Shown piece after piece: positions 7,230 through 62,895 of a stretch of 64,000 nucleotides of DNA. Numbering within the stretch: position 1 is the first letter of the stretch; each line of letters begins with the position of its first letter. The notes below the pieces were generated by a model that was given only the letters and a program-made list of their open reading frames with translations, did no database searches and had not been told where the DNA came from. The translations under genes and the position numbers were made by a program. This stretch comes from Deferrisoma camini S3R1 (GTDB lineage: Bacteria; Desulfobacterota; Deferrisomatia; Deferrisomatales; Deferrisomataceae): positions 1,885,014 to 1,949,013 of the forward strand of contig NZ_JAFN01000001.1 of assembly GCF_000526155.1 (NCBI RefSeq), given 5' to 3'.

Positions 7230-8366
7230 TTACGTCCGTGCGATCTCGTGCAGGGCCCGCACGAGAGCCTCGGCGTCCTCGTGGGTGCTGAACGGGCCGA
7301 AGCTCGCCCGCACCGACCCGGCCGGGAACGAGCCCAGGGCCCGGTGGGCCAGGGGAGCGCAGTGCAGCCCCACCCGCACCGCGATGCCGTGGCGCTCGTC
7401 CAGGGCGAACCCCACGAGGGCCCCGTCGTGCCCCTCCAGGTTGAACGAGACCACCGCCACCCGCTCCGCCGGGTCGGTGGGCCCGTACAGCACCAGGCCC
7501 GGCACCCTTGCCAGCTCGGGCAGGAGCCAGGCCAGGATCTCCTCCTCCTGCCGCCGCACCCGGTCCACCCCCCGGTCCAGCAGGTGCTCCACCCCGGCCC
7601 CCAACCCGGCGATCCCCGGTGTGTTCAGGGTTCCGGCCTCCAGGGCCTCGGGCATCTCCGCGGGCATGGTCGGGGCCTCGCTCCGGGTGCCCGTGCCTCC
7701 CTCCAGCAGGGGCTCCGGCGCCAGGTCGGGGTGCACGTACAGCACGCCGGTTCCCTGGGGCCCCAGTAGCCCCTTGTGGCCCGGGGCCGCGAGCAGATGA
7801 CACCCCACCTCCTCCACCGCGATCGGCACCGCACCCGCCGTCTGGGCGGCGTCGAGCAGGAACACCACGCCCTTGCGACGGCACAGGCGGCCCACCTCGG
7901 CCGCAGGAAGCAGGGTGCCCGACACGTTGGAGGCGTGCACGAGGGCCACCAACCGGGTCCGGGGCCGCAGGGCCGCTTCGATGTCGGCCGTGCGGACCCG
8001 GCCCCCGCGATCGGCCGGGACCCGGGTCACCTCCACCCCCCGGCGCTCCAGGCCGGCCAGGGGCCGGAGCACGCTGTTGTGCTCCATCACCGTGGTGACC
8101 ACGTGGTCCCCCGGCCGCAGGAGCCCCTTGAGGGCCAGGTTCAGGGCGTGGGTTCCGTTCAGGGTGAACACGATCCGGGCCGGATCGGCCACGCCCAGGA
8201 GCCGGGCCACGGCCTCCCGGGCGCCGTGGATCCGGCGGGCCGCCTCCAGGGCCCGGCCGTGCCCCGAGCGGCCGGGGTTCGCCCCGAGCTCCAGGGCCTC
8301 GGCCACGGCCCGGTGCACGGCGGGAGGCTTGGGGTGGGAGCTGGCCGCGTTGTCCAGGTAGATCAT
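7230..8366 (-). CDS. class V aminotransferase-fold cysteine desulfurase-like enzyme
   Basis: A 378-residue PLP enzyme of the cysteine desulfurase family, which mobilises sulfur from cysteine as a persulfide. It begins MIYLDNAASSHPKPPAV. The PLP lysine is K198 (APGHKGLLGPQG), preceded by DAAQTAGAVPI. The catalytic cysteine is C336 in RVGLHCAPLAHR, a short SufS/CsdA-like active-site loop. The ATG overlaps the stop of the SPASM-protein gene (ATGA), last in a run aminotransferase - DUF1178 - SPASM - this gene. The coupling suggests sulfur supply to an Fe-S or peptide-modification process, not general IscS function; that is inference. Confidence 0.9.
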   Translation of the reverse strand: MIYLDNAASSHPKPPAVHRAVAEALELGANPGRSGHGRALEAARRIHGAREAVARLLGVADPARIVFTLNGTHALNLALKGLLRPGDHVVTTVMEHNSVLRPLAGLERRGVEVTRVPADRGGRVRTADIEAALRPRTRLVALVHASNVSGTLLPAAEVGRLCRRKGVVFLLDAAQTAGAVPIAVEEVGCHLLAAPGHKGLLGPQGTGVLYVHPDLAPEPLLEGGTGTRSEAPTMPAEMPEALEAGTLNTPGIAGLGAGVEHLLDRGVDRVRRQEEEILAWLLPELARVPGLVLYGPTDPAERVAVVSFNLEGHDGALVGFALDERHGIAVRVGLHCAPLAHRALGSFPAGSVRASFGPFSTHEDAEALVRALHEIART

Positions 8367-9214
8367 GGCGGCTCCGGCCCGGGGCACGAGGCGTCGCGGC
8401 CGTCGGGCCCGGCAAGGCCCGGGCAGCCGCCCCGGCAGGTCTCGGACAGCCCGCACCCCCCGCAGGCGGCGGGCACCGCCTTCAGGTCCCGAGCCACCCG
8501 CTGCCGCCGGTCGCCCGCCCACAGCTCGGGCAGGGGCGCCCCCCGCAGATCGCCGATCTCCAGGGGATGGGTGCGGCAGGCCACCAGCCGCCCCTCCGCG
8601 GTCACGTGTGCGAGGAGCCCCGCGCCCTGGCAACCCCGGTAGCCGGACAGGTCAAGCCCCAGGTCCCGGGCCAGGAACAGGTCGTGCACCACGGCCTCCA
8701 GGCCCGGGCCGGCCCGGGCTTGCCACACCTGGGCCGCCCGGGCCCGGTCGGCCGGCAAGAGCGGCCGGGCCGGGGCCGGCGGGTTCAGCAGGGTCACCGA
8801 CCGCAGCCCGTAGGCCCGGGCCAGCTCCAACGCCTCCTCCAGGCTCGCGAGACCCTCGGGGTCGCACCACAGGGCGGGGGTGAGGCGATGGGTCGCCGCG
8901 GCCAGCTCCTCCACGCTGAGCTCGGGGCGGTACGGCGGCAGCACCCGGGCGTCCGCCGCGGCCAGGGCCCGGGGACCCAGGGCCTCGAAGGCCGCCAGCA
9001 GGGGATCGGGGGGGGCCAGCAAGGCGAGTTGGGGGCCGGGCCGCTCGGCCCATCCCCGGCCCAGGCCGGGGAGCCCGGCCAGGGCGGTGGGGGCCAGGCG
9101 CACCTCCACGAACAGCACCCGGGCCGAGGCCAGGCGCTCCCACACGAGCCATGCGAGATCGGGGTCCGGCGGGAGGTCCCAGGTGACCCGGACGGGGGCG
9201 GAGAGCTCAGGCAT
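8363..9214 (-). CDS. SPASM-domain protein lacking the radical SAM cluster motif (GeoRSP-like)
   Basis: This 283-residue protein has a radical SAM/SPASM-like layout but no CxxxCxxC motif. The N-terminus reads LSAPVRVTWDLPPDPD. The SPASM-like C-terminus supplies Cys at about 195, 213, 251, 254, 260, 264 and 277 (CQGAG, CRTHP, CGGCGLSETCRGGC). From memory, SPASM-only partners of this form occur in the GeoRSP systems of Geobacter beside a radical SAM/SPASM protein and a PqqD-like protein; neither of those is next to it here. It overlaps DUF1178 upstream by 8 bases and the cysteine desulfurase downstream by 4. The family call is moderately sure, the function unknown. Confidence 0.7.
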   Translation of the reverse strand: MPELSAPVRVTWDLPPDPDLAWLVWERLASARVLFVEVRLAPTALAGLPGLGRGWAERPGPQLALLAPPDPLLAAFEALGPRALAAADARVLPPYRPELSVEELAAATHRLTPALWCDPEGLASLEEALELARAYGLRSVTLLNPPAPARPLLPADRARAAQVWQARAGPGLEAVVHDLFLARDLGLDLSGYRGCQGAGLLAHVTAEGRLVACRTHPLEIGDLRGAPLPELWAGDRRQRVARDLKAVPAACGGCGLSETCRGGCPGLAGPDGRDASCPGPEPP

Positions 9215-11025: not shown

Positions 11026-11838
11026 ATGGAACCCATCGACCTGAGGTCCGACCTGCTGCCCCCCCTGATCGCGCTGGCCCTGTCGGTGGCCGTGCATCTG
11101 GCGGCCGCCTGGTGGGTGCCGTCCCCCCCCAAGCCCGACCGGTCGGAGCCCGAGGCCGTGGTCGTGGAGATGCGCGAACTGCCCGCCCCGGCGCCGCCCG
11201 ACAAACCCAAGCCCAAACCGCGCCGCCCGCCCAAGCCCCGGCCGAAGGCCGCCGCCCGGCCCCGCCCCAAGCCCGCGCCGAAGCCCCAGCCGGCCCGGCA
11301 ACCCCCGTCGCCCCAACCGGCTCCCCGACCGGCGCCCGAGCCCCCGCCGTTGGTCCAGGAGACGACGGCAAAGGCTCCGGCCCGGGCCGAACCGCCGGCC
11401 GCCCCGCCGGAGCCGGAGTCGGCGAAGCCGGCGCCCCGGCTGAGCGACCTGCTGCCGTCGCCCCGGGAGATCGCCGTCCAGGCCCGCTCCGGAGCCCCGG
11501 ACCCGGCGGGCGGGGCCCAGGAGGCCACGCTGTGGCTCGGCCAGACCGACACCCGGTACCGAGGCTACCTGGAACGGGTGCAGAACGCCATCGACGTGTC
11601 GTGGAGGTGGAAGGAGGCGCTCCTCGGGGCCGGCCGGCCCGGGAGCGTGGTGATCGGGTTCACCCTCACCCCGGACGGCCGGGCCGAGGAGGTCAAGGTG
11701 AGCCGGAGCTCCGGCAGCCCGCTGCTCGACGAGGAGGCCGCGGCAGCCGTGCGGCGGGCCGTGTTTCCGGCGTTCCCCACCCACTGGAGCATCCGCCGGC
11801 TGCGCCTGTTCGCCCAGTTCGACTACCGGCTGGAGTGA
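11026..11838 (+). CDS. tonB: TonB family energy transducer
   Basis: The 270-residue protein has one N-terminal membrane helix (residues about 12-32, LIALALSVAVHLAAAWWV) and a long Pro/Lys/Arg/Ala-rich periplasmic spacer (about 50-150). The C-terminal TonB-type domain runs from about 180 to 270 (RYRGYLERVQNAIDVSW ... GSVVIGFTLTPDG). TonB passes proton-motive force from ExbBD to outer-membrane receptors; no exbB or exbD is adjacent. It lies about 3 kb from the TonB-dependent receptor ending at 14714 and may energise it. The upstream 174 bases hold no other gene, and the ribosome site is weak. Confidence 0.88.
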   Translation: MEPIDLRSDLLPPLIALALSVAVHLAAAWWVPSPPKPDRSEPEAVVVEMRELPAPAPPDKPKPKPRRPPKPRPKAAARPRPKPAPKPQPARQPPSPQPAPRPAPEPPPLVQETTAKAPARAEPPAAPPEPESAKPAPRLSDLLPSPREIAVQARSGAPDPAGGAQEATLWLGQTDTRYRGYLERVQNAIDVSWRWKEALLGAGRPGSVVIGFTLTPDGRAEEVKVSRSSGSPLLDEEAAAAVRRAVFPAFPTHWSIRRLRLFAQFDYRLE

Positions 11839-12125
11839 TCCCAAGTTGTGCTACTAAAGTATTGCCAGGCCCGTGCCCCCTTCCCCTTAGGGAGTACGGG
11901 GTGGGGGTCTGGTGGAGCGCCGGGTGCGGCCCCTTCGCTCGCCGCGCCCTCCGAACGTGCGGATCCCCTCCGGATCCCGAGGTTTCCGCTATCGTGGCCT
12001 GGATCGACGGGTAAGCGGCGGCATGAGAAGGCGCGGCGATCGGATGCCGCACTCGCGCCCGGCCGGAACCAGGCCCCCACCCCGTACCCTGGCAATACGT
12101 TTGAAGGTCTTAGTAAAAAACATTA
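11839..12125. repeat. palindromic intergenic element (copy E5)
   Basis: The gap after tonB is an element with outer arms GCTACTAAAGTATTGCCAGG (left) and CCTGGCAATACG then TTTGAAGGTCTTAGTA (right), and inner arms GGGGTGGGGGTCTGG and CCAGGCCCCCACCCC. Between them, end 2 (TGGAGCGCCGGGTGCGGCC) comes first and end 1 (TGCCGCACTCGCGCCCGGCC) last. The same arms occur at 16733-17010 with the core reversed, and a shorter copy lies at 62775-62895. Confidence 0.75.
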
Positions 12126-12425: not shown

Positions 12426-13139
12426 TTGAACCCGTTCGTCCCGTTCCCCGAGCCCCGGGTGTTCGCCGTGTTCCACGGCCGCCGAAAGCGGTTCCTGGCG
12501 GACATGGTGCTCGAAGACGGCACCCCCACCGTGGCCCACTGCCCGAACACCGGCTCCATGAAGGGGTGCCTGTTCCCCGGACACCGGGCCCTGCTGTGGG
12601 ACAGCCGCAACCCAAAGCGCAAGCTCCGCTACACATGGAAGGCCATCGAGGCGGAAGGCCTCTGGGTCGGCATCGACACCGGCGTTCCCAACCGCCTGGT
12701 GGAGGAGGCCGTGCGCCGCGGCGCCGTGCCCGGGCTCCGTGGGTTCACGGAGGTGCTCCGGGAGAAGCGGATGGGAGCGCGCAGCCGCGTGGACCTCCTG
12801 TTGCGGGGCCCTTCCGGAGAGTGCTGGGTGGAGGTGAAGAATGTCACCTTGGTCGAAGGGGGAGCGGCCCGCTTCCCCGACGCCGTGACGGCCCGGGGGC
12901 TCCGGCACCTGGAGGAGCTCGCGGCCCGGGTGCGCGAAGGCCACCGGGCCGCCATGGTGTACGTGGTGCAGCGGGCCGACGGCGACCGGTTCGAGCCCGC
13001 GGCCGACATCGATCCGGCCTATGCCCAAGGGCTCGCCCGGGCCCGGGCGGCCGGGGTGGAGGTCTACGCCCTGGCGACCCGGGTCACCCCGCGGGGGGTG
13101 GAGATGACCGGGCTGCTGCCGGTGGAGGTCCGGGGGTAG
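12426..13139 (+). CDS. sfsA: SfsA family DNA/RNA nuclease-like protein
   Basis: The 237-residue protein matches the SfsA family (sugar fermentation stimulation protein), with MVLEDGTPTVAHCPNTGSMK near residue 25. The nuclease-like signature is SRVDLLLRG ... CWVEVKNVTLVE around 118-145. Biochemical function is unsettled; a nuclease activity has been proposed. The TTG start at 12426 is chosen because CGGAGGTCGCCGCC sits just before it and the N-terminus FVPFPEPRVFAVFHGRRKRF fits the family. Its 3' end overlaps the convergent radical SAM gene by 56 bases. Confidence 0.92.
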   Translation: MNPFVPFPEPRVFAVFHGRRKRFLADMVLEDGTPTVAHCPNTGSMKGCLFPGHRALLWDSRNPKRKLRYTWKAIEAEGLWVGIDTGVPNRLVEEAVRRGAVPGLRGFTEVLREKRMGARSRVDLLLRGPSGECWVEVKNVTLVEGGAARFPDAVTARGLRHLEELAARVREGHRAAMVYVVQRADGDRFEPAADIDPAYAQGLARARAAGVEVYALATRVTPRGVEMTGLLPVEVRG

Positions 13140-14448
13140 GGGACGATCCGGGGCCCTTCTGATCCTGGGCTCGCGCCTCGGCCACCACGAGGGGCTCCAG
13201 CACCCGGTCCCAGAACGATCTCTGGCAGTCCACCCCTTCCATCGTGCCGTCCCGCAGGAGCTTCCGGTACCGGCAGCCTCCGAAGCACAGGGGGAGGTAG
13301 ACACACTCCCGGCACGGAGCGTGCCGTTCCCACCGGGGAACCCGGAACGGGTCGGGACCGGACGAGATGCCTCCCTCCAGGGTTCCCACCACGAACTCGG
13401 GGCGGTTGATCAGGGCGGGGCAGCGGGTGAGGGTGCCGTCCCAGTTCACGGTGATGGCGTGGTCCAGGTCGGCCATGCACGGCGAGGGCGAGAGCTTCGG
13501 CACCCGGTACCCGCGGCTCCGGACGGCCCGGTCCAGGGTGATCACCGCCTCGGCCACCCACGGCTCGGCCGTGGAGGTGCAGGCCCCGCAGGCCGGGTCG
13601 GCTCCGTCGGCCGGGAGCACCGGGCTGAACCGCACCTGGGCGACCCGGTCCGGCCCCAGGCCGGCAGCCATCAGCAGGTCGAGCAGCTCCGGGAACCGCC
13701 GCCAGGTGTGCCGGGTGAGATTGGCCCCCACCCCCACCGGGACCCCGGAGGCGCACTGCCTGAGGTTCTCCACGATGTCGTGGAAGCTGCCCCGTCCGTC
13801 CCGGTAGGGCCGACTCCGGTCGTGGACGTCCGGGGGGCCGTCCAGGGTCACCTGGGCCCCCTTGAGCCCCAGGGGAAGCAGCGCGTCCAGCACGTCCGGG
13901 GTGAGGCGGCTTCCGTTGGTCACCAGCCTCAGCTCGAGGTCCACCCCCCGGTTCGCGCATCCCTCCCGGAGGCGGGAGGCCAACGATCGGATCGTCGCCA
14001 GGTGGAGGAGCGGCTCGCCGCCGTACACGTCCACCAGCAGCCGCTCGTGGCGGGACCCGAGCCGGTCGAGCAGGTACGCCACGAGCGCCTCGGCCGTCGC
14101 CTCGTCCATGGCGCCCGGGCCCTTGTCCGCTCCCTCGTAGCAGTACGGGCAGGCGAAGTTGCAGGCCATGCCCACGATCACGGCGGCCACGAGCACCGGG
14201 CTCACCCGGTTCACCTCCCCCAGGTAGCCCCACACCTGCCGGCGCTCCGCCTCCGGATCGTCCACCCACACCCCCACCCGTCGCAGGGCCGCCAGAGAGC
14301 CCTCCGAAAGGCTGGGGGCGCCTTCCTCCAGGCCCTGGAGCACGGCACTCGGCAGCCGGACGATCGATCCGCGGCGGGTCGAGAACACCAGAACCCGACC
14401 CGGCCGATCCGGGTCCGGAAACACCTTGAGATAGCGAGAGAGCGGCAT
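13084..14448 (-). CDS. radical SAM/SPASM peptide maturase
   Basis: A 454-residue radical SAM enzyme. Residues 1-80 form a PqqD/RRE-like leader-binding region (MPLSRYLKVFPDPDRPGR...). The [4Fe-4S]/SAM motif CNFACPYC lies at C96, C100, C103. The C-terminal SPASM domain has CPALINR, CRECVYLPLCFGGC and a last Cys in GVDCQRSF. From memory it resembles enzymes annotated as geopeptide radical SAM maturases in Geobacter. These install thioether or C-C crosslinks in ribosomal peptides. The ATG at 14448 (after GGGGGTGTCC) is preferred to a TTG at 14460. A 34-residue peptide gene lies 72 bases upstream across a hairpin, which supports a RiPP role. The chemistry is unknown. Confidence 0.88.
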   Translation of the reverse strand: MPLSRYLKVFPDPDRPGRVLVFSTRRGSIVRLPSAVLQGLEEGAPSLSEGSLAALRRVGVWVDDPEAERRQVWGYLGEVNRVSPVLVAAVIVGMACNFACPYCYEGADKGPGAMDEATAEALVAYLLDRLGSRHERLLVDVYGGEPLLHLATIRSLASRLREGCANRGVDLELRLVTNGSRLTPDVLDALLPLGLKGAQVTLDGPPDVHDRSRPYRDGRGSFHDIVENLRQCASGVPVGVGANLTRHTWRRFPELLDLLMAAGLGPDRVAQVRFSPVLPADGADPACGACTSTAEPWVAEAVITLDRAVRSRGYRVPKLSPSPCMADLDHAITVNWDGTLTRCPALINRPEFVVGTLEGGISSGPDPFRVPRWERHAPCRECVYLPLCFGGCRYRKLLRDGTMEGVDCQRSFWDRVLEPLVVAEARAQDQKGPGSSPTPGPPPAAARSSPPPAG

Positions 14449-14471
14449 GGACACCCCCAAAAAGAAGAAGA

Positions 14472-14500
14472 AGGCGGGAACCTCTCGAAGGTTCCCGCCT
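14472..14500 (-). terminator. attenuator-like hairpin between precursor peptide and maturase
   Basis: On the minus strand an 11-bp stem (AGGCGGGAACC / GGTTCCCGCCT) with a 7-base loop is followed by TTCTTCTTCTTTTT. This has the form of a rho-independent terminator. It lies after the peptide stop and just before the maturase start, the usual place for a partial terminator that gives more precursor than enzyme message. Confidence 0.75.
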
Positions 14501-14520
14501 CTCCGTTCCGCCGTCTCTTC

Positions 14521-14625
14521 CTAAGTCCGCAGGTTTTGCGGCCCAGTCTTGCAGCAATCGCCGGACGCCGCCACTTCCCGAACGTCCTTGCCTTCCTCGA
14601 GGATCTGGATCTCTTGTTCGCCCAT
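14521..14625 (-). CDS. candidate RiPP precursor peptide with Cys-Cys core
   Basis: A 34-residue reading frame starting MGEQEIQILEEGKDV and ending SGDCCKTGPQNLRT. The ribosome site GGAGGGCGAGCC lies directly before the ATG, one of the best in the region. The acidic, helix-prone first part looks like a leader; residues about 21-34 (SGDCCKTGPQNLRT) look like the core, with adjacent Cys24 and Cys25. It sits between a TonB-dependent receptor gene (stop 88 bases upstream) and a radical SAM/SPASM maturase, same strand. No signal peptide or membrane segment is seen. I recognise no named family with certainty. Being a substrate of the maturase is inference from position and form. Confidence 0.72.
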   Translation of the reverse strand: MGEQEIQILEEGKDVREVAASGDCCKTGPQNLRT

Positions 14626-14713
14626 GGCTCGCCCTCCGCGCTGGGGTGGTTGGTTGGGTCTTTTCTATCGACCCAAAAGAGATCGGACTTGAGCCCTCGG
14701 CTCCCCCCTGCGG

Positions 14714-16693
14714 TCAGAACCTCATCCGGATCCCGGCCTCGAGCCATCGCGGCTCCTGGCCCCGGTCCGTGCTGTACATGGCGTCGCCGTTGAACAGGTT
14801 GTGCACGGTGGCGAACAGGTCGGCCGTGACCGTCCTCGTCAGCGTCAGGGTTTTGCGCAGGTTCAGGTCCCACAGGAAGTCGTTATGGTCCCCCTCGCTC
14901 GCGCCGGGGCCGTAGTCCCACCACACGTACCGGCCCACGGCCTCGGCGTGGAGGCCGGGATCGGGATCGTAGTACACGCCCACCACGGCCTGGTGCTGGT
15001 CCTGGTCCCGGTCGCGGCCCGAGACCTCGATGCGCACCCAGGCAAACCCGCCCCGGAGCGTGACCCCCCCCAGCCGGGCCGTCTCCGCCTCCAGCTCGTA
15101 CCCGGTGCGCCAAATCGTGCCTTGGTTCTCCCAGGTGTTCGGGTTGGGCCCAGGCGAGGCGGCCGTGCGGATCGCCCCGCTTACCTCGTGGCGGAACCCC
15201 GTGAGCTTGAGCCACAGGCCGGGCAGGGCCGTGGTCTCGAGCCCCACCTGGTAGGACCAGATCTCCTCCGGGGCCAGGTCCGGGTTGGGGTCGAAGTCGA
15301 TCCCCCCGCTGGCGAGGTATGTGAGCGGCGGCGCGCTGAACCCCCGGGCCGCGTCGGCCCGGAGCAGGGTGCCCCGGCCCAACCCCACGGTGAGCCCCAG
15401 GCTGGGGCTCCAGAACGGGTCGGTGCGGGAGCTGTCGTCATACCGGACGCCCGGCACCAGGGTGAACCGGCCGGCCCGGATCGTGTCGTTGAGGTACACG
15501 CCCCAGCGGTCGATGGCCGGCTCCACCTCGAACCGGGCCGGGTTGCCGAGGCTCTGGAAGAAATCGCCCGAGTCGGTGCGGGCCCGGAGGTCCGTGTGCC
15601 GGTAGTCCACCCCGGCCACGACCACGTGCCGGCCCTGGGCCCAGGTGGCCCGGGCCTGCACGCCGGTGTGCTCCTCGTCGTAGAGGTTGTTGATCAGCAA
15701 CTCGCCCCGGGGCGCAAAGGTGCCGTCCTCCTGGGCAAACTGCTCGAGCCGCTGCCCGAACCGGTACGCCTCGAGCCGCAGCCCCAGGCGTTCCGAGGGC
15801 CGGGCGTCCAGGCCCGCCCGGGCGAAGGCGGCCCGGGGCTCGCTCTGGGCCAGGGCGAACTGGCTGGCCAGCCGGCCGGCATCGGTCTCCACGTCCACGA
15901 TCCCCGCCGATAGGTCCACGCTCGCGGCCCCGGACAGCAACACTTCGGCCTTGGCAAATGCACTGGCCTCCTCGAACCCGGCGGGGCCGGGCTGGTCCCA
16001 CTTGGCGTTCTGGGCCTGGGCCTGGGCATAGTAGCCCACCGGGCCGGCCGCTCCAGCCACCTCCCCCCGGGTGTCCCAGGAGCGGCGCTCCCCGTAGCTC
16101 GCGGCCAGCTCCCCCAGGGGCCGCCCCGGGCCGCCGGCCTCCTTGGTGATCACGTTGATGACCCCGCCCAGCGACGAGCCCCAGGCGGAGGACGCAGGGC
16201 CCTTGAGGATCTCGATCCGCTCGATGGGCCCCACCGGGATCGTGTCCAGGAACGGCCCGGCCGTCTCGGAGCTCCAAGGCACCCCGTCCAGCAGCACCAG
16301 CACGTGGCGGTCCTCGTGGCCGTAACGGAACGGGTTCGGCTCGCCCGAGCCCTGGATGTGGGCCAGGGGGGTCGCCCCGAAGTGGTTGCCAAAAGTAAAA
16401 GTGAACACGCCGGGAACCCGCTTGAGCACGTCCCCCAGGGTGTGGGCGTTCATGTCGCGGATCTCGTCCGCGGTGACCACGGTCACGTTCTCGGCCACCT
16501 GGTCGATCGGCTTGGGGGCGCGCGTCGCCGACACCACCAGGTCCTCGGGGTCGAAGTACAGCCGCACGAACGCCGCCTCCGGGTCCCCGCTGGCCACCAG
16601 GGGAACACCGGCAACAGGGGTGGCCCCGGCCGGGTGGGCCCAGGCCACCCCCAACACCAGGAGGACGAGCGCACGGATCGAAGGGGTACCCAC
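14714..16693 (-). CDS. TonB-dependent outer-membrane receptor
   Basis: About 659 residues from the GTG at 16693, which follows GGCAGGAGTCGG and begins a signal peptide (IRALVLLVLGVAWAHPAGA). A TonB box-like segment, EDLVVSATR, comes next. A plug domain follows (VAENVTVVTADEIRDMNAHTLG; ... GVINVITKEAGG), and a beta-barrel ends in the aromatic LEAGIRMRF. Receptors of this class import metal-chelates, vitamins or other large ligands. It is first in a tight minus-strand cluster with the Cys-Cys peptide and the radical SAM maturase, so it may take up the mature peptide or its metal complex (inference). No riboswitch or Fur-box was recognised upstream. Confidence 0.92.
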   Translation of the reverse strand: MGTPSIRALVLLVLGVAWAHPAGATPVAGVPLVASGDPEAAFVRLYFDPEDLVVSATRAPKPIDQVAENVTVVTADEIRDMNAHTLGDVLKRVPGVFTFTFGNHFGATPLAHIQGSGEPNPFRYGHEDRHVLVLLDGVPWSSETAGPFLDTIPVGPIERIEILKGPASSAWGSSLGGVINVITKEAGGPGRPLGELAASYGERRSWDTRGEVAGAAGPVGYYAQAQAQNAKWDQPGPAGFEEASAFAKAEVLLSGAASVDLSAGIVDVETDAGRLASQFALAQSEPRAAFARAGLDARPSERLGLRLEAYRFGQRLEQFAQEDGTFAPRGELLINNLYDEEHTGVQARATWAQGRHVVVAGVDYRHTDLRARTDSGDFFQSLGNPARFEVEPAIDRWGVYLNDTIRAGRFTLVPGVRYDDSSRTDPFWSPSLGLTVGLGRGTLLRADAARGFSAPPLTYLASGGIDFDPNPDLAPEEIWSYQVGLETTALPGLWLKLTGFRHEVSGAIRTAASPGPNPNTWENQGTIWRTGYELEAETARLGGVTLRGGFAWVRIEVSGRDRDQDQHQAVVGVYYDPDPGLHAEAVGRYVWWDYGPGASEGDHNDFLWDLNLRKTLTLTRTVTADLFATVHNLFNGDAMYSTDRGQEPRWLEAGIRMRF

Positions 16694-17454
16694 GTGTTCC
16701 GACTCCTGCCCCCGCCACCCAGAGGAACGCCTGTTACTAAGGCCTACGAAGGTATTGCCGGACGCGGGTGGGGGGCTGGCTCCGGCCGGGCGCGAGTGCG
16801 GCACCCGTTTCGCCGCGCCTTCGCATGCCGTTGTCAGCCCGGTAGGCCGGGGCGCCGGTGGCGGAAGATCCGGAACTTCCAAGGCGATTCAGGCTTGGTG
16901 AGGGCGCGGCGATGTGAGGGGCCGCGCCCGGCTCTCCACCAGCCCCCCACCCGCTGGTTCCCTTGTGAAGGCCGGAGATCTGGCAATACTTCCGTTGATA
17001 TTAGCACCAACCCGGCGAGAGAACAGGAGTCTCACCCCGGAGGGCGGGGCAAGGGACCGATAGCGCCTGTTTGTCCGCCGGGTTGACAAACAACAGGCGG
17101 CGGAAAGCTAGCAGACCCGGCAAGGAAAAGGCAACCTGGCGGGACGAGCGCCACGCTCCGACGCAGGGCTCATACCAAATTGCGTTCAAACCAAGATCCA
17201 TCCGGGGGCCGGGGCAAGGGGCCTGGTTCCGGCCGTGCGAGAGTGCAGCATCCGACTCACGCTGCCCCCGACACTCAGCCCGAGTGTCCCATGAACGGTA
17301 GGAAAGCGAACGTTGGCAATGCATTTCGGGTCACCGGCAGAGCGGGTATCGGCTGAGTGCCGGGGGCAGCGACTGTCGGAGCCACGCCCGGCGCTCCACC
17401 AGGCCCCTTGCCCCCCCGATTCAGGGGTCTGATGGCTTTGAACGCAACTTGGTA
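16694..17454. repeat. 761-base intergenic region with two palindromic elements (copies E6 and E7)
   Basis: Two elements fill the gap. E6 (about 16733-17010) has arms TTACTAAGGCCTACGAAGG / GGCAATACTTCC and reads end 1 (CTGGCTCCGGCCGGGCGC) then end 2 (GCGCCCGGCTCTCCACCAG). E7 (17165-17456) has arms TACCAAATTGCGTTC / GAACGCAACTTGGTA identical in kind to E1 but with the core of about 170 bases inverted. Between them, TTTGTCCGCCGGGTTGACAA recurs inverted near 31479. No protein gene with a ribosome site was found. Confidence 0.8.
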
Positions 17455-17997
17455 TCAGACGCCTTGGCAGCCGGGGCACGGGGTTGGGGAGAGGCGCTCC
17501 ACCGAAGCCGGGCCGGCGGGCTCGGACAGCGCGGCCCACCGTCCTCCTTCCGGCCCCGGGACCCAGCGGAACCTCCCACACCGGGAGCAGACACCAAGCA
17601 GCCTCTCGTACCGCAGCACTTTCCTGCGCAGCTCTCGCTTCTCCGCCTGGCGGGCGACCCGGAGCACCAGCTCCTCCGGCTGGAACGGTTTGAACAGGTA
17701 ATCGTCCGCGCCCTGACGCAGGGCCTCCAGGCCCGCGTCCTCGTTGGAGTAGCCCGTGATCACCACCACGCAGACCTGGGGGTCGCGGGACCTGGCCTGG
17801 CGAAGCACGGCAAAGCCGTCCTCCCCCTCCATCCGCAGGTCGGTCACGATCACGTCGTACTCCTGGCGCTCCACGGATGCCAGGGCGTCCTCCCCGGTGA
17901 CGGCCGTATCGACCTCGAATCCGAAGGCCGAGAGCGCCCTCCCCAGCGTCACCACCAGCAGTCTCTCGTCATCCACCAGCAGAATCCGGCCTTTCAT
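17455..17997 (-). CDS. response regulator with C-terminal CxxC module
   Basis: A 180-residue protein: receiver domain at residues 1-about 120 ([16 protein letters not shown]; phospho-acceptor Asp in VIVTDLRMEGEDG; DYLFKPFQPEE) followed by a short tail. The tail holds two Cys pairs (VCSRCGRFRWV and CPGCQGV), which could form a zinc ribbon. No DNA-binding domain is seen, so output may be by protein contact. It overlaps the histidine kinase gene by 29 bases. The Cys-pair tail is typical of some deltaproteobacterial single-domain regulators. Confidence 0.9.
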   Translation of the reverse strand: MKGRILLVDDERLLVVTLGRALSAFGFEVDTAVTGEDALASVERQEYDVIVTDLRMEGEDGFAVLRQARSRDPQVCVVVITGYSNEDAGLEALRQGADDYLFKPFQPEELVLRVARQAEKRELRRKVLRYERLLGVCSRCGRFRWVPGPEGGRWAALSEPAGPASVERLSPTPCPGCQGV

Positions 17998-19606
17998 CCC
18001 TACCCTCACCGATAGGCAACTCCACCGTGAACGCCGCACCCTCACCCACCCTGCTCTCCACATGGATCCGCCCGCCGTGGCGCTCCACGATCCCGTAGCA
18101 CACCGACAGTCCCAGGCCGGTGCCCGACGCCGCGGATTTGGTGGTGAAGAACGGCTCAAAGATCCGCTCCAGGTGGTCCTCGAGAATACCGCAGCCCGTA
18201 TCCTCGACGCGAATTCTCACGAGCCCGTTCGACGACGCGGTGGATACGCGGATGGTCCCTCCCGCCTCGGGCAACGCCTCGGCAGCGTTCGTCAGCAGGT
18301 TCAAGACCACCTGCTTCAGCTGATCCTCCACCGCGAAGATCCGCTTCACCCCGGCCGAGTACGAGGTCTCCACCCGGATCCGCTGCCGTGCGAACCGCTT
18401 CTTGCACAGGATCAGCATGGTGTCGATGCTGCGGTGGACGTCCACCCATTCGGGTGTCTCGGTGCTCGGCCGGTTGAACTCCCGCAGGCTTCGCACGAGC
18501 TTGGCGATCCGGTTGCACTCCCCGATCGACAGGGCCACCAGCTCGGCGTCTTCTGGATCGAGATCCAGCTTCCGTTGGAGCTCCTGGAGCACGTTTCTGA
18601 TCCCGAAAACGGGGTTGTTGATCTCGTGGGCGAGGGAGGCAGCCAGCTTGCCGACGGCGCTGAGCTTCTCGGTCTGCCGGAGATGGCGGTGCATCGCCTC
18701 CAGCTGGGCCGTCCGCTCCCGGACCCTCTCCTCCAAGAGGTCCCGGGCCCGGCGCAGCTCCTCGTTGGCCCGGGCGAGCTCTTGGGTACGCTCGGCCACC
18801 TTCTGCTCCAGCCCCTCCTTGAGCTCCCGGATCGTGGCGAACGCGAGCTCCAGCCGCGCGACCAGCGAGGTGAAGGTGTCCCGGAGCGCCCCGAGCTCGT
18901 CGTGGGCCTCCACCGTGATCCCCTGCTCCCGGAACGCCTCCACCAACCGGGCCAAGGGCCTCGCGGCCTCCCTGGAGACCAGGAAGGCCAGAAGGCCTCC
19001 CAGGAGGAGGAACCCTCCCCCTACCGCGGCCATGCGGCGTACGACAGCGTCCGTCTCGCGGCGGAGCCGCTCCTTGGACAGGACCACGGCCACATATCCC
19101 AAGACGGACGCCCCCCCCCCCGCCCCCCCAAGCCCCTCGAAGTACAGCTCCTCAGGGGTCTCGTACGACAGCCGATCGAGCACCCCCCGCCAAAAGACGA
19201 TCCGCTCCCCGTCCTCCTGCAAGATCACCCGCGCCAGGTCGCCGGGGCCTCCGGAGGCCATCCCCGTGAACGGAACCCGCTGGGACACGTCCGGGCCTCC
19301 CCCCGTGTGCATCAGCACCTCGCCTGTCGCGTCCAGCACCACCACCTGCTCCACGTTCCGGTTCCGGAGAACCGGAGCCGCGCTGCGCACCAGGGCCTCG
19401 TGATCAGAGGCAAACACATCCAGCCGCACGCTATTGGCGAGCAGGTGCGCGAGGGTTCGACCCTCCTCCTCGAACTGCATGCGCAACGAGGCCTGCTGGG
19501 ATCGAACCAGAACCGTGCCGAGGGCTAGGGTGAGAAGGAGGATGAACGTGAGGAGATAGACCAGGACTCTCGTGCGGAAGGTCAACCCCCTGGCCGCGGC
19601 CAACAC
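17969..19606 (-). CDS. membrane-bound sensor histidine kinase
   Basis: A 545-residue kinase. One membrane helix lies near residues 14-32 ([20 protein letters not shown]), then a periplasmic sensor region to about 195 and a second helix ([16 protein letters not shown]). A HAMP-like linker and a long coiled coil (about 255-310) follow. The H-box [13 protein letters not shown] carries the phospho-His, and the ATP-binding region has [16 protein letters not shown] and GTGLGLSV. It probably senses through or with the binding protein encoded upstream. The GTG start lacks a clear ribosome site, so it may be coupled to the preceding gene (29-base gap). Confidence 0.93.
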
Positions 19607-19635
19607 GGAGGGCGTCCCCGGGTGCCAGAAGGGAA

Positions 19636-20562
19636 TCAGTCGCCACCGCCCAGCCAGGCGGTGTCGAGGAACGTGCCGAGCTTTCTTGCCACCTCGGCGT
19701 TCACCCGAACCCTTGTCCGTTGGGCGACCTCACCCCGCTCCGCCCTCGAGCCCCCGGTCGAGAGCGCGTTCTCCGCCAGCACCGCTGCCGCCTCCCCCAT
19801 ACGCCGATAATCGGACACGAGAGCGATCATGGCTCCGCGACGCAGATACTTCTCGGCAAACGTGACCACCGGAACCCGCTCTTCCATGGAGAACCGCAGC
19901 ATTGCCTCTGCCGTCTGGGGGGTGAGCACCGTCAGGTCGGGAAGCATCCAGAGCACGTCGATGCGCCCGCGCAGCTCCTCCAGGCGCCCGCGGACCTCGC
20001 GGGCGGTGCGAGCCTCGACGCCGACGATCCGCATCCCCTGCAACCGGGCCAGGGCGCTTGCCTTCCCCACGAACGCGCCGGTTCCCCCCGGAGAGAACAC
20101 GACGCCGATCCGCCGCACCTTGGGCAGGCATTTCTCGGTGACCTCAACCCAACGCGCGGGCGGCACGGAGAATGGGACCCCAGCGGCCCGATCGTGGAAG
20201 ACCAAGCGGGGCTCCGGGTCCGGCACCATCGTGTAGACCAGGGGAATCCCACGGAACCGGTCGGCAAAAGAAAGGGCCTTCCCGCCGATCGCCAGGATGA
20301 GGTCCACGGGACGGGATTCCAGGAACCGAGCCGCAGCCTCACGCCCCCCCTGATCCGCGAGCACGAACTCGGTGAACTGGTGGGGATGGAGCGTCTTGGT
20401 TCCGGAAAGGGGGGGGCGGTGGGACAGCGCCTCCCGAAAGGCCTGTCGAGCCTCCTCGTAGGGGCGGATCCTCGCGCTCTGCACGATGACGACCTCGGCG
20501 GCCCGAGCGGCCCCCCCCAACCCCACGACCAGCAAAACACACAAAAGCCACCACCGGCGCAC
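19636..20562 (-). CDS. ABC-type periplasmic substrate-binding protein (PF04392-like)
   Basis: A 308-residue protein with a signal peptide (VRRWWLLCVLLVVGLGGAARA) and an ABC_sub_bind fold: SARIRPYEEARQAFREAL, DLILAIGGKAL, RRIGVVFSPGG, DVLWMLPDLTVLTP, VPVVTFAEKYLRRGAMIALV. The GTG at 20562 is preferred over upstream starts because GTAGGGGGAGGTGCC precedes it and the signal peptide follows at once. No permease or ATPase gene is beside it. Instead it heads an operon with a histidine kinase and response regulator, suggesting it is a ligand-sensing partner; the ligand is unknown. Confidence 0.87.
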   Translation of the reverse strand: MRRWWLLCVLLVVGLGGAARAAEVVIVQSARIRPYEEARQAFREALSHRPPLSGTKTLHPHQFTEFVLADQGGREAAARFLESRPVDLILAIGGKALSFADRFRGIPLVYTMVPDPEPRLVFHDRAAGVPFSVPPARWVEVTEKCLPKVRRIGVVFSPGGTGAFVGKASALARLQGMRIVGVEARTAREVRGRLEELRGRIDVLWMLPDLTVLTPQTAEAMLRFSMEERVPVVTFAEKYLRRGAMIALVSDYRRMGEAAAVLAENALSTGGSRAERGEVAQRTRVRVNAEVARKLGTFLDTAWLGGGD

Positions 20563-21115
20563 CTGGCACCTCCCCCTACACGCGACGAACCGGGCTCCTC
20601 CGGAAAGGGATGGAACCGCCCCCCCTCCCCCACCGCCCCGACATCGGCAGCCGCACCCTCTCACTGGCTTCGCCCCCCACCGGATAGATCTCCTTCAACC
20701 TGAGGAAAAAAATCCATCAGATGTTGCGTAGTGTAACACGCACGGTCCTCGGCTGCATCCCCGATCTTCTCCCCACGCATCCTTCCCCGCCCTCGGCTCC
20801 GCCTTGCCCCGCCCGAAACCCTCGTGCTAGCTTTGCGGGCTTCCATGTGACTTCGGCCGTTGGTCGTCGGTCGAAAGCTCGCCTCGACATCAGAGTCGAG
20901 GGGCGCGGGGCCTGTTGGAGCGCCGGGCGGGGCCGTATCGGGGACCAGGACTCAGAGGACAGGGGACGGGAGAGCCTATCTTCTGTCCACCTAGTCCCGA
21001 CTCCTGAAACGCAGGCCCCCGCCCCCGCGGGAGGGTGTCCTACGTTGTAGGGCCCCGCAGGGGCCTGGCGAAGCTTTCCATATCGTAATCGCAAGCGACC
21101 CCAAGGAGCGGTTCC
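20563..21115. repeat. intergenic region with composite repeat (copy E8)
   Basis: A 553-base gap between the divergent binding-protein and gatC genes. About 20860-21065 carries 7-mer units (GTCGTCG GTCGAAA), element end 2 (GGGGCCTGTTGGAGCGCCGG), a second 7-mer pair (AGGACTC AGAGGAC AGGGGAC ... CTGTCCA) and a GTTGTAGGGCCCCGCAGGGG palindrome just before gatC. The part 20563-20860 holds the leaders of both operons; no clear promoter was resolved. Confidence 0.6.
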
Positions 21116-62774: not shown

Positions 62775-62895
62775 GGGAAGGGGTGGGGGTCTGGTGGAGC
62801 GACGGGCAAGCGGCGGCATGAGAAGGCGCGGCGAGCGGATGCCGCACCCGCGCCCGGCCGGAGCCAGGCCCCCACCCCGTACGCTTGAAGGTCTT
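62775..62895. repeat. palindromic intergenic element (copy E15)
   Basis: Arms GGGGTGGGGGTCTGG and CCAGGCCCCCACCCC with a core of about 65 bases (GGAGCGACGGGCAAGCGGCG ... CGCGCCCGGCCGGAG), then GTACGCTTGAAGGTCTTCG. It matches copy E5 at 11890-12120 with an internal deletion. Confidence 0.75.

Follow-up and report, generated by a model that had tools for sequence, protein, structure and literature searches.

The geopeptide family stands closest to the locus described here, and its radical SAM/SPASM maturases are named in NCBIfam (TIGR04280); no paper giving their role was found among open-licence PMC articles, where searches on geopeptide, TIGR04280, and the pairing of a radical SAM RiPP with a TonB receptor yielded no pertinent article. 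CteB/SCIFF (ranthipeptide) and sactipeptide maturases combine an N-terminal leader-binding domain, a radical SAM core and a SPASM domain, with a Cys-containing core in the substrate. Methanobactin clusters hold a Cys-containing peptide and a TonB-dependent receptor, together with MbnB and MbnC. In the case of PQQ and its receptor PqqU, a peptide-derived product has both an enzyme of the radical SAM/SPASM type and a TonB-dependent receptor to handle it. In TorT/TorS/TorR-like systems, the sensor kinase takes its input from a periplasmic binding protein, with no ABC transporter involved.

The locus studied here lies in a 64,000-nucleotide stretch of the Deferrisoma camini S3R1 genome (the window). 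It shares with the geopeptide family a maturase above the curated cut-off and a short CC peptide upstream, but its peptide matches no precursor model, and no paper was found on its receptor, binding protein and kinase partners. The domain arrangement and the Cys-containing core are those of the CteB/SCIFF and sactipeptide systems, whereas identity to CteB is only ≈ 17–18%, the cysteines form a vicinal pair, and an outer-membrane receptor and a sensor belong to the unit. Cys-containing peptide and TonB-dependent receptor recall the methanobactin clusters, with radical SAM chemistry in place of MbnB/MbnC; methanobactin-type chemistry was rejected, the MbnB (DUF692)/MbnC pair being absent among the genes scanned around the locus, all of which fall into other families. 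The same holds for PQQ, whose enzyme and receptor types are found here with a precursor unlike PqqA; identity of the receptor with PqqU was likewise rejected (NF041535, 40.7 bits against a cut-off of 1200). The coupling of a binding protein to a kinase with no ABC transporter is the TorT/TorS/TorR-like trait, whereas here an ABC_sub_bind protein (PF04392), a Cache-type sensor and an outer-membrane receptor occur in one RiPP unit. The geopeptide enzyme family is therefore known by name, and its obligate receptor/sensor cassette is apparently undescribed.

Precursor peptide and maturase

A sequence-only reading of this region had proposed a RiPP locus of three minus-strand genes in the order receptor, peptide, maturase, and this layout was confirmed. 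The stop of the receptor gene (14714–16693) precedes the peptide start at 14625 by exactly 88 bases, the 34-residue precursor (14521–14625) has the ribosome site GGAGG, and the maturase (13084–14448) carries CNFACPYC (CxxxCxxC) as well as the SPASM cysteines. The identity of the locus as a RiPP locus is close to certain. The start of the maturase is more probably the ATG at 14448 than the TTG at 14460, since the homologous proteins start at the Met of MPLSRYLK.

The HMM search against RiPP families that had been suggested for the maturase gave 470.8 bits for TIGR04280 (geopeptide radical SAM maturase; cut-off 400; model positions 1–424 of 428), with the next-best family at 150 bits, and because the curated cut-off is passed the protein is assigned as a geopeptide enzyme. 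Its cysteines are invariant in the alignment. The AlphaFold model (mean pLDDT 86.7) superposes on CteB, a SCIFF maturase that forms thioethers, over residues 4–428 with Z 27.9, the N-terminal leader-binding (RRE) domain included, and Foldseek returned E values of 2.7e-18 to 8.2e-19 for the same comparison; the earlier remark on a leader-binding-like N-terminus is thereby supported, and the protein takes its place among the radical SAM/SPASM RiPP maturases. Its fold and HMM relatives suggest that the maturase may perform thioether chemistry.

The precursor reads MGEQEIQILEEGKDVREVAASGDCCKTGPQNLRT, with MGEQEIQILEEGKDVREVAASGD as leader and CCKTGPQNLRT as core (CC-x7-R), so that a short Cys-Cys precursor adjoins the maturase as in other geopeptide loci. 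None of the NCBIfam or Pfam models matched the peptide (0 hits), and TIGR04281, guessed as its model, proved to be an unrelated family. The sequence-only reading had staked its interpretation on conservation of this frame beside homologous maturases, which was indeed found. In two same-genus genomes this frame again precedes the maturase (L161 and L157, the latter with the peptide genes doubled in tandem). Of the 31 codons compared between the window and L161 peptides, 20 match exactly, 8 show a synonymous change and 3 a non-synonymous one. Since the frame is conserved both in these genomes and across phyla, the 34-codon frame is, judged by sequence conservation, a genuine gene beyond chance.

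Nearly every maturase has beside it a short frame, most often preceded by a ribosome site, whose hydrophobic leader motif is of the EIxVLDEG type and whose Cys-Cys pair is near-terminal. In total, 44 distinct peptides were collected; all contain Cys-Cys, an invariance that is partly by construction since the collection filter demanded CC, and most fit [EIxVLDEG]...CC-x7-R. The presence of such a frame at almost all loci is independent of that filter. An arginine nine residues past the first Cys (CC-x7-R) occurs in 26 of 41 peptides, and the core residues are variable outside CC and Arg. The IxVLDEG leader and the CC-x7-R core thus supply a sequence rule for finding more precursors. A variant precursor at approximately L053:9715-9950 has a long N-terminus rich in Lys/Ala (KKTA repeats) and ends in AACCMGKPYVLK, with CC kept.

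Receptor, binding protein and kinase as constant partners

The unit is wider than the three genes first recognised, and the window contains one copy of a gene set that is widespread in bacteria. Upstream of the receptor, on the same (minus) strand, the stretch 17455–20664 encodes a response regulator, a kinase and an ABC_sub_bind protein, which the earlier interpretation had lacked and which point to sensing; its geopeptide-type RiPP locus, its leader-binding N-terminus and the functional tie of the receptor have stood. The receptor possesses a PF07715 plug (E 1e-19) and a PF00593 β-barrel (E 1.3e-34), as befits a TonB-dependent outer-membrane receptor. The ABC_sub_bind (PF04392) periplasmic binding protein (19636–20664, minus) is related to TrpX-type proteins. 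The sensor histidine kinase (17969–19606, minus) comprises a periplasmic Cache-type sensor, HAMP, HisKA and HATPase; its sensor matches single Cache domains weakly in sequence and CitA/WalK-type sensor domains in fold (a moderate model, pLDDT 75.8). The response regulator (17455–17997, minus) has a receiver domain (PF00072, E 2.6e-28) and a short CxxC...CxxC tail, with no recognised DNA-binding domain. Genes for an ABC permease or ATPase occur neither in the window cassette nor among the commonest flanking-gene families of the other loci, so that the ABC_sub_bind protein is without the partners of an ABC transporter. Sensing is favoured over nutrition, since an ABC permease is missing from the cassette genes.

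The same genome contains a second complete cassette (L011, C1:1480000-1499999), likewise absent from the earlier reading, in the order ABC_sub_bind, kinase, receptor, peptide MEELGILVLDEGIDGEAFGPMTTCCFTSVAIFRWSG and maturase; between peptide and maturase lies an MFS gene on the opposite strand. Identities between the two cassettes amount to 49% for the maturases, 46% for the receptors, 46% for the kinases and 35% for the ABC_sub_bind proteins.

For a broader comparison, TIGR04280 was searched in 395 Desulfobacterota genomes, 35 of which gave a match with E 1e-80 or better and 31 a match over the cut-off; named contigs of Geotalea, Desulfobulbaceae, Desulfuromonadales and Nitrospirae were added, with neighbourhoods of up to 20 kb, and occurrence beyond Desulfobacterota rests on such contigs (the Nitrospirae loci L050, L051 and L053). 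Where 6.5 kb or more of sequence upstream of the maturase was available, the receptor was found in 35/35 loci, the ABC_sub_bind protein in 35/35 and the sensor kinase in 34/35, and a receptor lay within 2.5 kb in all 42 loci with that much upstream sequence; the profiles behind these final counts were built from the same loci, and single-sequence searches beforehand had given 35/35 and 42/42 for the receptor and 33/35 for the binding protein. In the neighbourhoods of 66 other radical SAM/SPASM genes, the receptor and the binding protein occurred once each, a lenient control because many of these neighbourhoods come from Gram-positive hosts. The genome itself (4.24 Mb) offers a stricter one, with 6 plug domains and 5 ABC_sub_bind matches, two of each within the two cassettes. 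These counts show a constant partnership of the geopeptide maturase with the receptor, the ABC_sub_bind protein and the Cache-domain kinase. The receptor, which had been considered unmatched to any described system, is hence no oddity of this genome, and the 42 loci tie it functionally to the RiPP locus; as to description, the open-licence literature yielded no paper on these partners.

For the two cassettes of this genome, maturase, receptor, binding protein and kinase show co-varying distances to other loci (0.92–0.98, values weighted by a few close relatives), and co-variation is weaker or absent for the other paralogue pairs. Some co-variation of this kind is expected from common descent, and it might be asked whether the gene order is accidental or simply inherited, with no functional link at all. 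The gene set is, however, retained through four layouts, which argues against the simple inheritance of one operon; paralogous cassettes occur both dispersed and in tandem (L131, a double cassette), and the background is almost nil. This explanation, already disfavoured, can be given next to no weight.

A distant group of maturases falls below the cut-off (L056, L057 and L160, also L058, L059, L159, L162 and L163), scoring about 280–310 bits against TIGR04280 in the four genomes scored. A CC peptide lies upstream at three of these loci, and their gene surroundings differ.

A putative uptake-and-sensing circuit and its alternatives

The reading to which we incline, with somewhat better than even confidence and from the gene content, is that of a RiPP uptake-and-sensing cassette, in which the modified peptide would be exported, re-imported and sensed. 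The N-terminal domain of the maturase would serve to bind the leader, and the enzyme would place thioether bonds on the vicinal cysteines or alter them in another way. Once trimmed, the product would be released from the cell, for which some genomes may use an EntS-like MFS exporter, and would return via the cassette's own receptor, perhaps carrying a metal or another ligand; the periplasmic binding protein would then capture it and signal through the kinase and the response regulator. We infer such a loop from the constancy of its candidate parts. Its more specific form, a Gram-negative self-sensing circuit in which a dicysteine peptide modified by radical SAM chemistry exits, returns through a dedicated TonB-dependent receptor and is reported by a binding protein-coupled kinase, would make the product a peptide pheromone or the sensor a metallophore sensor working across both membranes, and we put this forward tentatively, at slightly less than even confidence.

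With receptor, binding protein and kinase nearly always present, an otherwise orphan RiPP family acquires a hypothesis that can be tested, namely that the product is retaken and sensed by its producer. If true, anaerobic lineages, metal reducers among them, would gain a modified-peptide signal or metallophore. In the open-licence literature searched, no description was found of such re-import and sensing by a cell of its own modified peptide in this family.

Alternatively, receptor, binding protein and kinase could sense an unrelated environmental ligand (a metal chelate, cofactor or siderophore), with the modified peptide as the regulated output. Related, looser sets do occur in the phylum without the maturase: receptor and ABC_sub_bind protein, often with the kinase, lie without a radical SAM maturase at L199, L202, L203, L208 and L210, in part as tandem repeats. 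We read these sets as a wider sensing module, and their existence implies that this module predates the peptide or extends beyond it, and can sense something else. On the other hand, every geopeptide maturase locus with enough sequence has the receptor, and at L209 (genome G153) the receptor, binding protein and kinase are retained with no maturase in the 18 kb examined (≈ 6 kb past the peptide on its free side). The receptor gene there is flanked by a divergently oriented geopeptide-like frame (L209:11444-11545, MREEHDDLLVLEEGSDTEMPMTCICTTSVTKIK) that has CIC instead of CC and is preceded by the ribosome site GGGGGGAGG; G153 has maturases elsewhere in its genome. This frame indicates that the receptor module follows the peptide and not the enzyme alone, and we therefore regard sensing of an unrelated ligand as unlikely, while granting it some weight.

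Less probable still is that the modified peptide stays in the cell envelope, where it would assist the relay of receptor, binding protein and kinase as a small partner of redox, metal or regulatory type. Neither an exporter nor a peptidase recurs in all cassettes among the neighbour families of the collected loci: only seven loci have an MFS gene no more than 700 bp from the maturase, response regulators are found among the neighbours, and no conserved leader peptidase was seen in the neighbourhoods. The very long Lys-rich N-terminus of the L053 peptide would also suit retention. A TonB-dependent receptor, however, normally imports from outside, and the MFS gene, where present, resembles secretion-type exporters (the two scanned match families of this type including EntS, below curated cut-offs). 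An antimicrobial role, in which the product would enter competitors via homologous receptors and the local receptor and kinase would serve self-sensing or immunity, draws on the variability of the core apart from CC and Arg and on the fact that radical SAM RiPPs are often antimicrobial, but no immunity-type gene is recurrent across the scanned neighbourhoods, and we hold this role to be very improbable.

Control elements and minor features around the locus

A strong hairpin with a 14-pair stem and a T-rich tail, an intrinsic terminator by its features, separates peptide from maturase in the gap between them (14501–14471, minus strand), a feature that the earlier reading had passed over. Comparable hairpins were found at about half of the loci scored under a strict rule, at same-genus loci, and after the L011 peptide. 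Such a terminator behind the peptide gene would let the precursor outnumber the enzyme. Riboswitch control was rejected, since between 7 and 23 kb of the window no Rfam family matched close to its gathering score, and a sigma-70 promoter scan found no promoter. A TonB-type energiser gene (11026–11838, plus; PF03544, E 2e-12) lies near the cassette in this genome.

A dispersed intergenic repeat of ≈ 100 bp has one copy directly before the receptor gene. Its copies in the window are at 16731–16829 (minus), about 12020–12116 (plus), 17223–17250 (minus) and 62840–62867 (plus), and genome-wide there are at least 40 matches, eight of them 96–100% identical. Elsewhere, at 8363–9214 (minus), the window encodes a SPASM-only protein weakly like the GeoRSP SPASM protein (57 bits, cut-off 300), adjoining an aminotransferase class V gene.
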